Part shown: piece after piece, positions 41,756 through 46,884 of the stretch
Layout of the letters: each line of letters starts with the position of its first letter
How positions within the stretch are numbered: the stretch's first letter is position 1
Assembly: GCA_021157585.1 (NCBI GenBank)
Contig: JAGGWH010000046.1
Span: 1-52,343 of the forward strand
Reading direction: 5' to 3'
Origin: Bacteroidales bacterium
Lineage (GTDB): Bacteria > Bacteroidota > Bacteroidia > Bacteroidales > UBA12170
Length of the DNA stretch: 52,343 bases
The notes under the pieces: model-generated
What the model saw: only the letters and a program-made list of their open reading frames with translations
What the model was told of the DNA's origin: nothing
The model's database searches: none
Made by a program: the position numbers and the translations under genes

Positions 41756-42511
41756 TCAAAGATGTAAAATTTCACGTAGCAACACTAAACCGGAACGGCT
41801 AATTTTAATATTTTCTCCATTTGACAGAATAATTTGATGCGAATCCTTACTGTAATTTCCAATTTTTGAAATTTCATCTATATTTACTATAAATGACCTA
41901 TGAACTCTTACAAATTGACCATTAGGCAAGCTATTCTCCAAAGAACGCAAACTAGTTAATTTTAAATACTTCTGCTCTTTTGTATGAATCATCACATAAT
42001 CGTCTTGCGCTTCAATAAATAATATTTCAGAAACAGGAATTATATGAACATTTACACCTTCTTTTACAACTATTCTATCCAAAAGCCGCCTTTCTTGTTG
42101 TGCATTTTTAAGTTTAGATAAAGACTTTTTTAAATCGGGAACTAATACTTTTTGAGTATCCAACACTTTATTAACGGAGCGCTCAAACCGTTCTTGTGAA
42201 AAAGGTTTTAATAAATAATCTATTGCGGCTAACTCAAAGGCTTTAACAGCATATTCGTGATAGGCTGTAGTAAAAATTATTTGGGGAGGGTCATCCAAAA
42301 GCTCAAGAATTTCAAGGCCATTCAATTTTGGCATTTCTATATCTAAGAAAACAAGATCAGGCTTTTCTGCCTGTATAGCTTTTAAAGCTGAGAAACCATC
42401 GGCATAAATACCAATTAAAATAAGTTCCGGTATAGACTGTATCCACTTTTCTAATAATTTTTGAGCGGGTAATTCATCCTCAACTATAAAAACCTTAAGC
42501 TGTTTCATCAT
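41756..42511 (-). CDS. LytTR-family response regulator
   Basis: A 251-residue regulator. N-terminal receiver domain (1-120) with acidic pocket (VEDE) and phospho-acceptor Asp57 in LVFLDIEMPKLNGLE. C-terminal LytTR DNA-binding domain (about 150-250) with the typical ILFIEAQDDYVMIHTKEQKY segment and FVRVHRSFIVNIDEI. It overlaps the kinase gene by 17 bp, so translation is coupled. A direct repeat with the 21-bp spacing typical of LytTR sites lies upstream of the operon at 44451-44481. Confidence 0.93.
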   Translation of the reverse strand: MMKQLKVFIVEDELPAQKLLEKWIQSIPELILIGIYADGFSALKAIQAEKPDLVFLDIEMPKLNGLEILELLDDPPQIIFTTAYHEYAVKAFELAAIDYLLKPFSQERFERSVNKVLDTQKVLVPDLKKSLSKLKNAQQERRLLDRIVVKEGVNVHIIPVSEILFIEAQDDYVMIHTKEQKYLKLTSLRSLENSLPNGQFVRVHRSFIVNIDEISKIGNYSKDSHQIILSNGENIKISRSGLVLLREILHL

Positions 42512-43562
42512 TATCTGTTTGGGGAATTATAATATTAACTTTAAACAGATTATCTGTTTTTTCGAGCCTAAAATCGGCTGCATTTTTGTAAATTATATTC
42601 AAACGCTTACGAACATTATCAATACCTTGTCCGGATCCTTTTTTAACATTAACAGATTTATCATATGTATTACATACTTCTATCAATAAATTAGTATTAC
42701 TTTCTTTTGCTTTTATTTTAACATCAACATCACCTAATTTACTTCCTAAACCATATTTAATGGCATTTTCCAAAAGAGGTTGTAAAAGCATTGCGGGCAA
42801 TTTCAAATCTAAAGCTTTTTCTTGAATATTTTTATTGAACTTCAGGCGATTTCCAAAACGAACATGTTCTATAGCCATATAACGTTCCAAATTAACAAGC
42901 TCATCCTTAAGATCTATCTTTTCTTGTTTATTTTTTTCAATGGAAAATCGCAAAAAGTCAGATAATTGCAACAGCATTTTACTCGCATTTTCAGGCTCTG
43001 TCTGAATTAAGGCATTTAAGCTATTTAAGCTGTTAAACAAAAAATGAGGGTTAAGTTTAGATCTTAATAAATCTATTTCGGCATTTTGTAAGCTTGAATG
43101 AAGCTTTAATTCTTTTTCTTTTCGTTGCTGTTGCCGAATATAATTTGCATACAAATAGTAAACAACAATCAGAATAATGTATAACAGAAACCCATTTCCA
43201 TATCGCCACCCTATTGTTCCCCACAGTAAATTCACATAATCGGGAGATAAAGAAAAAATATGTGCTAATATATAGGTTCCGCTGTACACCCAAATACTAA
43301 CCAAAACAAAAGCCGAAGCTAAATGTTCTAAAATCAAAGGGAAAAGTTGATTTTTCTCAAAACTGGCATAACGAATAAAATACCACACTCCTATTCCAAT
43401 AAAGAAATAAATACTTCCGAAAAGAAGACTGTCAATTACTGCATAAAACCACGAAACAGAAAACAACTGAAAAAAGGATAGAGTTTGAATGCTAATCAGT
43501 ATAACCCAAGCCAAAATATACATTCCAAATGCTGTCTTACTGCTGAAAAGAGGATGTTGCAT
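42495..43562 (-). CDS. LytS-type sensor histidine kinase
   Basis: A 355-residue membrane histidine kinase. Four membrane helices (about 12-140), a short basic linker (RQQQRKEKE), then the His_kinase domain with phospho-acceptor His173 in NPHFLFNSLNSLNALI and an ATPase domain with N box (LLENAIKYGLGS) and G box (GSGQGIDNVRKRL). No large extracytoplasmic sensor domain is present, so the signal is probably sensed in the membrane or through its neighbour. It sits between the LiaF-like gene (39 nt upstream) and the LytTR regulator. Confidence 0.93.
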   Translation of the reverse strand: MQHPLFSSKTAFGMYILAWVILISIQTLSFFQLFSVSWFYAVIDSLLFGSIYFFIGIGVWYFIRYASFEKNQLFPLILEHLASAFVLVSIWVYSGTYILAHIFSLSPDYVNLLWGTIGWRYGNGFLLYIILIVVYYLYANYIRQQQRKEKELKLHSSLQNAEIDLLRSKLNPHFLFNSLNSLNALIQTEPENASKMLLQLSDFLRFSIEKNKQEKIDLKDELVNLERYMAIEHVRFGNRLKFNKNIQEKALDLKLPAMLLQPLLENAIKYGLGSKLGDVDVKIKAKESNTNLLIEVCNTYDKSVNVKKGSGQGIDNVRKRLNIIYKNAADFRLEKTDNLFKVNIIIPQTDNDETA

Positions 43563-43601: not shown

Positions 43602-44381
43602 TTAGTAAGATTTTAATTCGGCTCCACCGAATAAAACAAGTCCTTTAATCACCAATACTGAAGGAGCACCTTCTGTAATTTCTTCTGGCTTTCGCACATA
43701 TCTTTTATCACTAAACCCACCAAAAACAGAGATCGTTTCTACTTTTATTACCCAATCTGCAGGAACAATTATTTCCGATCCTCCAAAAACAAAGAAAATA
43801 TCAAGCACTTGTTTTCCTGGGGCTAATTTAGCACGATGCATCTTTATTTCAGAGCCGCCAAAAATGGCGGTTAGCTTTCCTCCTTTAAAATTCTTACTTG
43901 TAATTACACGAGACCCACCACCAAAAATGGCAATATCGTTAACATAATCATCCTGTGCAAAATCGCCTTGTTCATCAGACTGATTCTCATTTCTGTACTT
44001 ATTGCGCTCTCTTATTCTGTTCTTCCAAAAACGTTCACCATACTTACTTTCAGAGGAATTAAACAGAAGAAAAATACCAACAGCAACAATCGCCATAGGC
44101 CAAATAAATCGCCCCATACGAATTGGAATATGAATAATATCCGGAATCCAAAACATTATACCAACTGTCAGCATAATAAATCCGCCCGTTCGGTTATGCG
44201 AAAATAGAAGGTTTAAAGTTCCGATAGCTATTAATAACGTTTTCCAACTAAAAATATAATACCTCATTTGTGGAGGCAATACATTTAGATTATTAAGCAA
44301 GAACAATAAACCTGCAACCAAAATAATAATACCGGCTATTACACGTCCGTTTGAATCTTGTCTTTGTGGATGATTTCTCAT
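43602..44381 (-). CDS. LiaF-like membrane protein
   Basis: A 259-residue protein. Four closely spaced membrane helices (about 12-105), e.g. VIAGIIILVAGLLFLLNNLN and IWPMAIVAVGIFLLFNSS. A cytoplasmic linker rich in Arg, Asn and Asp follows, then a C-terminal beta-helix-like domain with repeated GG turns (IAIFGGGSRVI, TAIFGGSEIKM, FFVFGGSEIIV, ISVFGGF). This is the layout of LiaF/YvqF-type envelope-stress inhibitors of two-component kinases. A TTG codon upstream (44405) is in frame but sits at the probable transcription start, so ATG 44381 is used. Confidence 0.85.
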   Translation of the reverse strand: MRNHPQRQDSNGRVIAGIIILVAGLLFLLNNLNVLPPQMRYYIFSWKTLLIAIGTLNLLFSHNRTGGFIMLTVGIMFWIPDIIHIPIRMGRFIWPMAIVAVGIFLLFNSSESKYGERFWKNRIRERNKYRNENQSDEQGDFAQDDYVNDIAIFGGGSRVITSKNFKGGKLTAIFGGSEIKMHRAKLAPGKQVLDIFFVFGGSEIIVPADWVIKVETISVFGGFSDKRYVRKPEEITEGAPSVLVIKGLVLFGGAELKSY

Positions 44382-44412: not shown

Positions 44413-44443
44413 CGAAACTAAAGACATTACCACAATAAGTCAA
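44413..44443 (-). promoter_or_regulatory. Promoter of the LiaF-LytS-LytTR operon
   Basis: On the minus strand TTG (44443-44441) and TAGTTTCG (44420-44413) are 20 nt apart. The second is a 7 of 8 match to TAnnTTTG and the spacing suits the Bacteroidota -33/-7 promoter. The direct repeat at 44451-44481 ends 7 bp upstream. Confidence 0.45.
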
Positions 44444-44450
44444 GAAGTTT

Positions 44451-44481
44451 TCGGCGAATGGCATTCATTTATCGGCGAATG
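44451..44481. promoter_or_regulatory. Perfect 10-bp direct repeat, candidate LytTR operator
   Basis: TCGGCGAATG occurs at 44451-44460 and again at 44472-44481 (CATTCGCCGA on the minus strand), start to start 21 bp, i.e. two helical turns. LytTR-domain regulators bind paired direct repeats of about 9-10 bp at 21-22 bp spacing, usually just upstream of the promoter. Here the repeat lies between mnmA and the LytTR operon, next to the operon promoter. Confidence 0.6.
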
Positions 44482-44493
44482 ACGAAAAACACT

Positions 44494-44501
44494 TATTTTT
44501 G
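44494..44501 (+). promoter_or_regulatory. -7 box (TATTTTTG) for mnmA
   Basis: TATTTTTG fully matches TAnnTTTG, 21 nt upstream of the mnmA ATG. Confidence 0.5.
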
Positions 44502-44522: not shown

Positions 44523-45596
44523 ATGAAAATAGCAGCATTAGTTTCGGGAGGTGTCGACAGCTCAGTTACAGTTCACCTGTTAAAAGAAATGGGTTACGAC
44601 CCTACAATCTTCTACATAAAAATAGGCTTGGAAGATGAGCCCGGATACGTTTGTCCAAAAGAAGAGGATATTGAAATCACCAGTTATATTGCCAAAAAAT
44701 ATGGCTGCAAAATGGAGATTGTCGATTTACAAAAGGAATATTACGACACCGTTATTAAATACACCCTGGATACCGTAAAAAAAGGACTTACACCCAATCC
44801 GGATATTATGTGTAATCTGCTTATTAAATTTGGTGCATTTAATGATAAATACGGTAAAGAATTTGATAGAATTTCTACCGGACATTATGCGGGAATAGAA
44901 GTAATTGATGGACAAAACTATTTGCATACGGCTGTTGACAGACATAAAGATCAAACCTACTTTTTAGGTCGGATTAGCAATGCTCAATTACAAAAAGCGA
45001 TGTTTCCATTACAAAATATCCCTAAACCCGAGGTAAGAAAAATCGCCTATAATATCAAACTACCATCAGCAGGAAGACCTGATAGTCAAGGAATTTGCTT
45101 TCTTGGGAAAATAAACTATAACGATTTTATCCGCCAATATGTTGGCGAAAATAAAGGCGATATTGTTGAATTAGAAACTGGGCGACGTTTAGGTGAGCAT
45201 CGTGGATTATGGTTTCACACTATTGGCCAACGAAGAGGATTGGGATTAAGCCAAGGTCCTTGGTTTGTGGTAAAAAAAGATATGGAAAAGAATATTCTTT
45301 ATGTTTCTAACGGTTACGATCCAATTGCTCAATACGAAGATAAAATTTGGTTAGCCGATTTTAAATTTATTAACGAGAAAGCCGATCGTGATTATTCTGT
45401 TTTTCAAGATGTAAAATTTAAAACACGCCACACCCCCGATTTTACAAAAGGAAAACTTATTCAGAAAGGCGATCAATACTTTATTCAATCAGATACTGCA
45501 ATTGCAGGCATAGCAGCAGGGCAATTTGGAGTAATTTATGACGAAGCGGAAGAAATTTGCTTAGGAGCAGGAATCATTAATAATTCGCTTCTTTAA
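44523..45596 (+). CDS. mnmA: tRNA-specific 2-thiouridylase
   Basis: A 357-residue ATP-dependent enzyme that inserts sulfur at U34 of Lys, Glu and Gln tRNAs. PP-loop SGGVDSS (8-14), catalytic Cys97 in NPDIMCNLLIKFGAF and Cys192 in SQGICFLGK match E. coli Cys102 and Cys199. Length is normal. The segment GLEDEPGYVCPKEEDIE near the N-terminus is a variant of the usual region. It is divergent from the LiaF-like operon. Confidence 0.96.
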   Translation: MKIAALVSGGVDSSVTVHLLKEMGYDPTIFYIKIGLEDEPGYVCPKEEDIEITSYIAKKYGCKMEIVDLQKEYYDTVIKYTLDTVKKGLTPNPDIMCNLLIKFGAFNDKYGKEFDRISTGHYAGIEVIDGQNYLHTAVDRHKDQTYFLGRISNAQLQKAMFPLQNIPKPEVRKIAYNIKLPSAGRPDSQGICFLGKINYNDFIRQYVGENKGDIVELETGRRLGEHRGLWFHTIGQRRGLGLSQGPWFVVKKDMEKNILYVSNGYDPIAQYEDKIWLADFKFINEKADRDYSVFQDVKFKTRHTPDFTKGKLIQKGDQYFIQSDTAIAGIAAGQFGVIYDEAEEICLGAGIINNSLL

Positions 45597-45675
45597 AAAC
45601 TTTATTTTCTATTAAATTTGGGATATAAGTTCTCTTTGTTGTATTTTGGTGCTGAAATTTAAAACTCGCATCAAA

Positions 45676-46884
45676 ATGAAACTTAATAAACTTTATTATT
45701 TCGTCTTATTTATTGGCTTAGGAATCTCTCTTTTTAGTTGTACAAAAGATGATACTGACACTCCCGATAATCCTCAAGCAGTTCAAAGAGGCGACCTGAT
45801 AAAATCTGTTAAGATGGATGACATCACCATAACAGAAATAAATCTGGGCTTAACCTTAACCGGAGCACATACAATCTTAAATCCTGAATATAAGGTTGAA
45901 ATGATTAAACTTTCCTATTCAACTATTGATAGTGAAGGAGAGCCTACAACAGCTAGTGGTGCTTTATTCATTCCGGTAACAGGCGGCACATTCCCTATGT
46001 TAAGCTACCAGCACGGCACCTTAGCTAAACGCACTAATGTTCCAACTTATATGGGTTCAAATTCCACAGAAGGAATGGTTGGAGCACTTGGCGCTTCTCT
46101 AGGATTTATCAGTTGCTTACCTGATTACTTAGGCTTAGGCGATTCTCAAGAAGTTCATCCTTATCTTCAATCCGAATTATCGGCGTCAGCAAGTATTGAC
46201 ATGCTAATTGCAGCTGAAAATTATTGTGATGAGAATGGAATCTCTTATTCAGGCGATTTATACATTTGTGGGTATTCTGAGGGCGGATATGTTACTATGG
46301 CAACTCAAAAGGAATTAGAAGCCGATTATAGCTCAAAGTTTAACCTTAAAGCATCGGCACCAATGGCAGGTCCTTATGATGTTGAAGCTACTGCTGATGG
46401 TATATTAACATTAGATACCTACAGCTCACCGGCATTAATTGGTTTTATATTATACTCTTATGCTGAATATTACGACAATTTAGATTTATCGGATATTTTT
46501 AATGCTCCTTATGCAGATCTAGTTTCTAGCCTATACGATGGAACCAATGACTTGAGAACTATTAATGCCAACCTAACAACAGATATGACAGCACTATTAA
46601 ATCAAACTTTTGTAAACGATTTTAAAACCAATGATAATCATGTTTTACGATTAGATTTTCGCGAAAATTCTTTGCTTGACTGGAACCCTAAAAATCCCAT
46701 CCGATTTTATCACAGCCTAGCTGATGAAATTGTTCCTTACGCTATCAGTGTAAATGCAGAGCAAATTTTGAGTGCAAATAGCAGTTCAACCGTTGAATTG
46801 ATAAGCATTCAAACTGGTTCTCACACAGATGCTGCCGTACCCATTATATTATCTGCTTTGGAGTGGTTTGATTCTTTAAAATAA
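45676..46884 (+). CDS. Lipoprotein alpha/beta hydrolase (secretory-lipase-like)
   Basis: A 402-residue exported hydrolase, signal peptide to LFSC (Cys22). Hydrolase motifs: SYQHGTLAKRTN (oxyanion region), nucleophile elbow GYSEGG (Ser201), an Asp in HSLADEIVPYA and His in GSHTDAA near the C-terminus. The overall layout resembles fungal-type secretory lipases and related bacterial esterases, anchored here in the envelope. Substrate unknown. Start is ATG 45676; an upstream TTG frame adds ten residues before the signal peptide and is not used. Confidence 0.85.
   Translation: MKLNKLYYFVLFIGLGISLFSCTKDDTDTPDNPQAVQRGDLIKSVKMDDITITEINLGLTLTGAHTILNPEYKVEMIKLSYSTIDSEGEPTTASGALFIPVTGGTFPMLSYQHGTLAKRTNVPTYMGSNSTEGMVGALGASLGFISCLPDYLGLGDSQEVHPYLQSELSASASIDMLIAAENYCDENGISYSGDLYICGYSEGGYVTMATQKELEADYSSKFNLKASAPMAGPYDVEATADGILTLDTYSSPALIGFILYSYAEYYDNLDLSDIFNAPYADLVSSLYDGTNDLRTINANLTTDMTALLNQTFVNDFKTNDNHVLRLDFRENSLLDWNPKNPIRFYHSLADEIVPYAISVNAEQILSANSSSTVELISIQTGSHTDAAVPIILSALEWFDSLK

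Follow-up and report, generated by a model that had tools for sequence, protein, structure and literature searches.

The liaF/mnmA intergenic region

The window, by which we mean the whole 52,343-nt stretch of DNA that was analysed, carries on its reverse strand an operon with the gene order liaF, kinase, regulator, which is separated by a 117-bp gap from the divergent gene mnmA. The relevant features, several of them within that gap, are the following.

41756–42511, reverse strand: LytTR response regulator gene, presumed to encode the binder of the repeat (LytTR domain PF04397, 1.4e-26; receiver domain PF00072, 1.3e-20)
42495–43562, reverse strand: LytS-type histidine kinase gene (PF06580, 2.3e-25), overlapping the regulator gene
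43602–44381, reverse strand: gene of a LiaF-like membrane protein, the first of the operon (LiaF-TM, PF22570, 2.1e-16)
44413–44420, reverse strand: -7 element TAGTTTCG of the liaF operon promoter, TAnnTTTG with one mismatch
44440–44443, reverse strand: -33 element TTGA of the liaF operon promoter, 7 bp past the proximal half-site
44451–44460, reverse strand: promoter-proximal half-site CATTCGCCGA, 21 bp from the distal copy, with the core TT[CT][AG]CCGA of 57 selected sites
44472–44481, reverse strand: promoter-distal half-site CATTCGCCGA, the pair being kept in 11 of 11 genus genomes
44494–44501, forward strand: -7 element TATTTTTG of the divergent mnmA promoter, 12 bp from the half-site in 7 of 7 linked genomes
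44523–45596, forward strand: mnmA, the divergent neighbour, to which the repeat does not belong

The product of the first gene matches PF22570 at 61 bits (cut-off 27), and its C-terminal LiaF domain PF09922 reaches 21.9 bits, below the cut-off of 29. Translation of liaF most likely starts at ATG 44381, the ninth codon of the open reading frame, instead of TTG 44405, because the latter lies at about the position where the -7 box would place the start of transcription. Bacteroidetes-type promoters have a consensus of -33 and -7 (TAnnTTTG) elements, and the liaF promoter, TTGA-19 bp-TAGTTTCG, shows their spacing of about 19 bp. On the other side of the gap, the -33 zone of the mnmA promoter (44471–44474) runs into the distal half-site. 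Downstream of mnmA, a secretory-lipase-like protein (PF03583) is encoded at 45646–46884 of the window. The genome contains four LytTR genes, that is, three besides the regulator of this operon.

On the forward strand the repeat reads TCGGCGAATG, at 44451–44460 and again at 44472–44481, 21 bp from start to start; along the operon strand the pair is CATTCGCCGA-N11-CATTCGCCGA, from 44481 to 44451. The original prediction had described a perfect direct repeat at this spacing, lying 7 bp from a -33/-7 promoter that faces the operon, and both descriptions hold, with identity at 10 of 10 positions; the interval 44413–44481 assigned to it spans the promoter plus the repeat, and the repeat proper is confined to 44451–44481. 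With up to three mismatches the pair occurs once in the window and in none of 100 shuffles. A genome-wide search, proposed together with the original prediction, gave a single true-pattern match at the same tolerance in the 2.93-Mb genome, and since the backward-pattern control also gave one match, the genome count is by itself not evidence. The expected number of exact 10-bp repeats at a spacing of 21 in the gap is about 0.0004, or 0.02 when all spacings are summed. According to the available part of PMC4847170, LytTR regulators bind repeats of 9–11 nt with spacers of 11–13 nt; the format found here, 10-bp copies with an 11-bp spacer, falls within these ranges, and a LytTR regulator (PF04397, 1.4e-26) is encoded nearby as the third gene of the operon.

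Conservation of the repeat pair

Relatives of the regulator were sought in 60 related genomes and found in 30 at E 1e-40, after which the operons were fetched and mapped; of 28 loci with liaF (the window and 27 others), one (L060) was set aside for having liaF elsewhere than upstream of the kinase gene, leaving 27 that were scored. All ten genus operons scored have the pair at 21 bp, matching 17–20 of 20 positions. The search did not recover the regulator from an eleventh genus genome, G004, but there too the liaF/mnmA gap contains a perfect pair (L087), so that all 11 genomes of the genus have the repeat pair ahead of their orthologous operon. The original prediction was to be given up if the repeat proved absent upstream of orthologous operons; it was present in 11 of 11 genomes of the genus and in many, not all, orthologous operons beyond it, in other families and in some other phyla.

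Linkage of liaF to mnmA was seen in 7 of the 11 genus genomes. The repeat is kept in four genus operons (L041–L044) whose fetched stretch does not include mnmA, and in three genus genomes with unlinked mnmA the region upstream of that gene has no repeat (9–11 of 20 positions) and keeps TATTTTTG; a search of G008 at E 1e-60 gave no mnmA. Ownership of the repeat by mnmA was rejected on account of these unlinked copies, which, together with the operons that retain the repeat without mnmA, indicate that the repeat belongs to the liaF operon.

Outside the genus, the genus-derived motif was applied to 17 operons from other families of the order. At a spacing of 21 their mean best score was 14.59, with 6 of 17 at 16 or more, against means of 11.9–12.8 and 0–2 operons at 16 or more for every other spacing from 11 to 44. 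Nine of these 17 operons score below 15; some of the low-scoring orthologous operons have weaker pairs, one of them (L045) spaced at 22 bp, and L052, L054 and L058 have no pair within the stretch examined.

A wider set of named loci consisted of the best 80 of 590 from a scan of public genomes with an alignment of 14 regulator sequences, and is thus not a random sample. In 64 of these best 80 of 590, liaF is present, and removal of L107 and L112 as duplicates of G001 and G003 left 62. At a spacing of 21, 34 of the 62 liaF loci (among the best 80 of 590) reach at least 15 of 20 positions and 25 reach at least 16, compared with 1–7 loci at 15 or more for each of 31 other spacings; the remaining 28 of these 62 operons score below 15. 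In LytTR operons without liaF, none of 21 reached 15 within 450–500 bp before the kinase gene, or as much of this as was available; L155, where no kinase turned up, and L152, which offered just 140 bp, had been dropped from this control, and L066, L070, L071 and L072 were not entered. Random 350-bp stretches reached 15 in 3 of 189 cases. Fisher's test for the liaF loci among the best 80 of 590 gave p = 1.7e-6 against the operons without liaF and p = 1.4e-21 against the random stretches.

Sites were also found outside Bacteroidota, where assignments follow record titles, mostly of metagenome bins. Among the best 80 of 590, four of six loci titled as Acidobacteria or their subgroups (Holophagaceae and Vicinamibacteria included) and three of four from Betaproteobacteria, Massilia kyonggiensis among them, score 17–18; the other loci of these two groups score 11–14 and the single Fibrobacter locus 13.

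Anatomy of the candidate operator and matches elsewhere

The half-site was characterised from 57 of 94 upstream regions, namely those scoring at least 15 (37 score less), a selection that biases the information content of the logo towards the motif and in which promoter offsets played no part. The consensus of these 57 sites is TT[CT][AG]CCGA, preferentially preceded by CA, and half-sites 21 bp apart lie on the same face of the helix. An exact TAnnTTTG starts 30 bp after the second half-site in 22 sites, 31 bp after it in three, 51 bp in eight and 52 bp in one; none of the 57 has it at any of the remaining offsets between 0 and 69. When five of the six positions suffice, the box lies at 30–31 in 36 of 57 and at 51–52 in 15, with neither in six, so that in 51 of 57 the pair sits at one of these two distances from the box, next to the promoter it would control and conserved with it. 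The -33 position in the 36 sites with the box at 30–31 is conserved weakly, with TTG in 16 and TT in 31.

In the 15 sites with the box at 51–52, a third, degenerate half-site (TTRCCTA-like) follows 21 bp further on, at +21, with a mean score of 6.07 of 8 compared with at most 3.87 at the other offsets tried; the promoter-nearest half-site thereby keeps its distance from the promoter. These loci (L109, L110, L114, L117, L120, L123, L125, L128, L130, L134, L137, L142, L149, L159 and L061) belong, judging by title, mostly to Sphingobacteriales, Chitinophagales and Cytophagales. At the sites from Acidobacteria and Betaproteobacteria, a TAnnnT box starts at 30–31 in six of seven, and L174 has none.

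Searches for the motif at large returned the liaF operon repeatedly. The pair alone, with up to two mismatches, was found at 28 places in 22 of the 60 relatives, versus five control matches; 13 were sites of liaF operons (that of G008 counted twice, at two contig ends), one preceded another kinase–LytTR operon (L077) and 14 stood before neither kind of operon, three of these being one minisatellite; such further two-mismatch matches lie for the most part within reading frames or a minisatellite. With at most one mismatch, the pair occurred in 12 of 393 genomes of the order, at 13 places in all versus three control matches; ten of these places lie before a liaF operon (the G008 site again twice), and the others are L077, one before an efflux operon (L106/L268) and one inside a gene. 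The whole layout, pair-N30-TAnnTTTG with up to one mismatch, occurred at 44 places in 38 of 395 genomes of the phylum, compared with no match for the reversed control. The first gene downstream is liaF in 28 of the 44, in one case at 454 bp; five precede efflux or ABC-export operons, two precede PspC-LiaF or DUF2807 genes, three are one minisatellite, to judge by its sequence, and six have no clear assignment. One locus is shared between this search and the named-loci set (L144 and G417 contig 26 are the same), and the two are accordingly not fully independent.

Away from the liaF operon, an operator-like pair with its box at 30 bp precedes a MarR–TolC–MFP–RND efflux operon in G255 (L268) and a receiver–TolC–MFP–RND operon in G417 (L267), and in G409 (L264/L331) and G414 (L265/L332) a pair heads a MacAB–TolC-like operon, which in G409 ends in a kinase and LytTR gene of its own (L331). 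The one-mismatch pair before another kinase–LytTR operon in G056 (L077/L269) has its TAGTTTTG box at 22 bp, not 30, and a two-mismatch pair lies upstream of a phytoene-desaturase-like gene in G032 (L099/L270). In G558 (contig 94, 33038–33146) and G049 (contig 124, 54078–54150), sequence of 21-bp periodicity imitates the operator.

Of the genomes with sites before efflux, PspC or DUF2807 genes, six (G255, G417, G429, G460, G415 and G538) encode a protein closely related to the liaF-linked regulator (320 bits or more), and G409 and G414 do not (at most 217 bits). The idea that efflux pumps are a conserved target was nevertheless discarded: in nine related genes of the same family (49–75% identical to the G429 TolC gene) no site was present, with best scores of 10–13 of 16, and the G429 efflux match is thus either lineage-specific or due to chance. 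Within the genus, the core pattern with one mismatch yielded 52 matches versus 48 for the control across 11 genomes, which is no excess of further targets, and in the genome analysed here four versus seven, with two of the four (L204, L225) inside long open stretches. Because the TolC relatives lack the site and no target in the genus rises above chance, a wider regulon that includes efflux, PspC and DUF2807 targets is treated as suggestive only.

Proposed mechanism, alternatives and significance

The reading that we regard as very probable, drawn from comparison of sequences, is that the repeats serve as the operator of the operon's own LytTR regulator and thereby give positive autoregulation of an envelope-sensing three-component system. 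The main idea of the original prediction, an operator of the LiaF–LytS–LytTR operon, finds support in the pair at 21 bp, its fixed distance from the promoter and its presence at orthologous operons; binding by the operon's own regulator and a positive effect are what we infer from co-occurrence and position. Signalling by the LiaF/LytS membrane sensor would lead to phosphorylation of the regulator, which would then bind both half-sites cooperatively, on one helix face and directly beside the -33 region, and would help RNA polymerase to start the liaF–kinase–regulator operon. Dependence on phosphorylation, cooperativity, activation over repression and an envelope signal are presumed parts of this scheme.

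The same regulator could instead bind beside the -33 element and repress its own operon. Such negative autoregulation would accord with the proximal half-site ending only 7 bp from that element, and the sign of control is not readable from sequence; yet the half-sites overlap neither the -33 nor the -7 element of the liaF promoter, the weak conservation of -33 noted above (TTG in 16 of 36) would suit an activator-dependent promoter, and in the LytTR Regulatory System (LRS) where this layout has been studied the effect is activation, as given in the available part of PMC6193735, so that we consider repression quite improbable. A two-way switch, in which the distal half-site covers the -33 zone of mnmA and the regulator also represses or activates that gene, is an alternative that we consider rather unlikely. 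In 7 of 7 linked genomes exactly 12 bp separate the mnmA -7 box TATTTTTG from the distal half-site, and this constant spacing makes the mnmA -33 zone overlap the half-site, whereas in the three genus members with unlinked mnmA the region before that gene has no repeat (9–11 of 20) but retains TATTTTTG, and linkage in only 7 of 11 genus genomes means that any effect on mnmA may be incidental. Cross-control of mnmA, a tRNA-modification gene, is in this sense possible.

Binding by another of the cell's LytTR proteins, rather than by the operon's own regulator, would be conceivable in a genome with four LytTR genes, and the motif does precede operons with other LytTR paralogues in G056 (L077/L269, one mismatch) and G409; however, it follows the liaF-linked operon across families, and none of the 21 LytTR operons without liaF carries it within 450–500 bp of the kinase gene, which leaves this explanation very unlikely. 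To a chance repeat, or a property of mnmA with no regulatory role, we give virtually no weight: short repeats do arise by chance, and the relatives contain two-mismatch matches inside reading frames and in a minisatellite, but the expectation at this spacing is about 0.0004 and the repeat is conserved where mnmA is absent, a conservation that already contradicts such a reading.

The closest parallels in layout are the LRS of Streptococcus mutans (HdrRM, BrsRM) and the LRS-like operons, with candidate sites, of Bacteroides thetaiotaomicron and B. ovatus, which, as portrayed in the part of PMC6193735 available, have direct repeats of about 21–22 bp period just upstream of their own promoter, as here; repeats of this kind, immediately preceding -35, are what HdrR uses to activate its own operon. 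The same excerpts describe operons shared by a LytTR regulator and a membrane protein, again as here, together with half-sites that by our own alignment share ACC(G) with the present one and Bacteroides LRS-like promoters of the form TGTA/TGTG-19 bp-TATCTTTG, which match the layout in the window (PMC6193735). Differences from that account lie in the kinase, which LRS lack and which is present here (PF06580) together with a receiver-bearing regulator; in gene order, the regulator gene coming first in the S. mutans type and last here; and in the site, which has the half-site TT[CT][AG]CCGA and, measured from (A/G)CC in our own alignment, lies about 10 bp nearer to -33 than in the two Bacteroides operons (PMC6193735). 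An LRS has a LytTR regulator that works without a kinase and is kept in check by an inhibitor in the membrane; with a PF06580 kinase and a receiver domain, and with the regulator gene not upstream of the membrane protein gene, the operon falls outside that definition.

Other known systems resemble the operon or its repeat in part. The YpdB operator precedes yhjX, not the regulator's own operon; the regulator of LiaFSR and VraTSR is of the NarL/LuxR type; and the promoter-proximal AgrA repeats are centred near -60, with a half-site and a signal that differ from those here. The operator of Escherichia coli yhjX, bound by YpdB of a LytS/LytTR system, consists of two direct repeats of 10 bp (GGCATTTCAT) separated by 11 bp, by our own count on the oligonucleotide printed in the accessible part of PMC4847170, and its half-site sequence differs from the present one. 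The AgrA sites at agr P2/P3 are counted among the closest known systems (PMC4227749, in part). In LiaFSR and VraTSR a LiaF-type membrane protein is encoded with a kinase and a response regulator, as here, and Ignavibacteriae have been noted to combine LiaF with a two-component system (both in the portion of PMC11237479 at hand). Here the kinase belongs to PF06580 and the output domain is LytTR, not the NarL/LuxR type of LiaFSR and VraTSR.

The LytTR regulators of Bacteroidota have, to our knowledge, few known binding sites. Direct-repeat operators of LytTR regulators and their autoregulation are already known; notable here are the broad conservation of this probable operator and its three-half-site form. 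At the level of titles and opening lines of abstracts, the open-access literature yielded no description of this site or of an operator for any LiaF–LytS–LytTR operon, and the available portions of PMC5552118, PMC13384398 and PMC6222199 contain nothing on this site.

More tentatively, and with somewhat less than even confidence, we suggest that the pair marks an undescribed envelope-stress regulon: an operator–promoter unit kept with the LiaF–LytS–LytTR operon from Bacteroidota to Acidobacteria and Betaproteobacteria, built of two phased TTYRCCGA half-sites at 21 bp, or three in a group rich in Sphingobacteriales, Chitinophagales and Cytophagales, and placed 30–31 bp from the -7/-10 box. In individual lineages such a unit would also have been taken up by efflux pumps, PspC-LiaF and DUF2807 genes. 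Two versus three half-sites at one promoter position offer a simple comparison for the activation of transcription by LytTR regulators. The cited papers, in the parts available, describe this presumed envelope-sensing system as a gene neighbourhood only; a sharp consensus, a fixed spacing and a fixed promoter distance across families and some phyla would make its output predictable.
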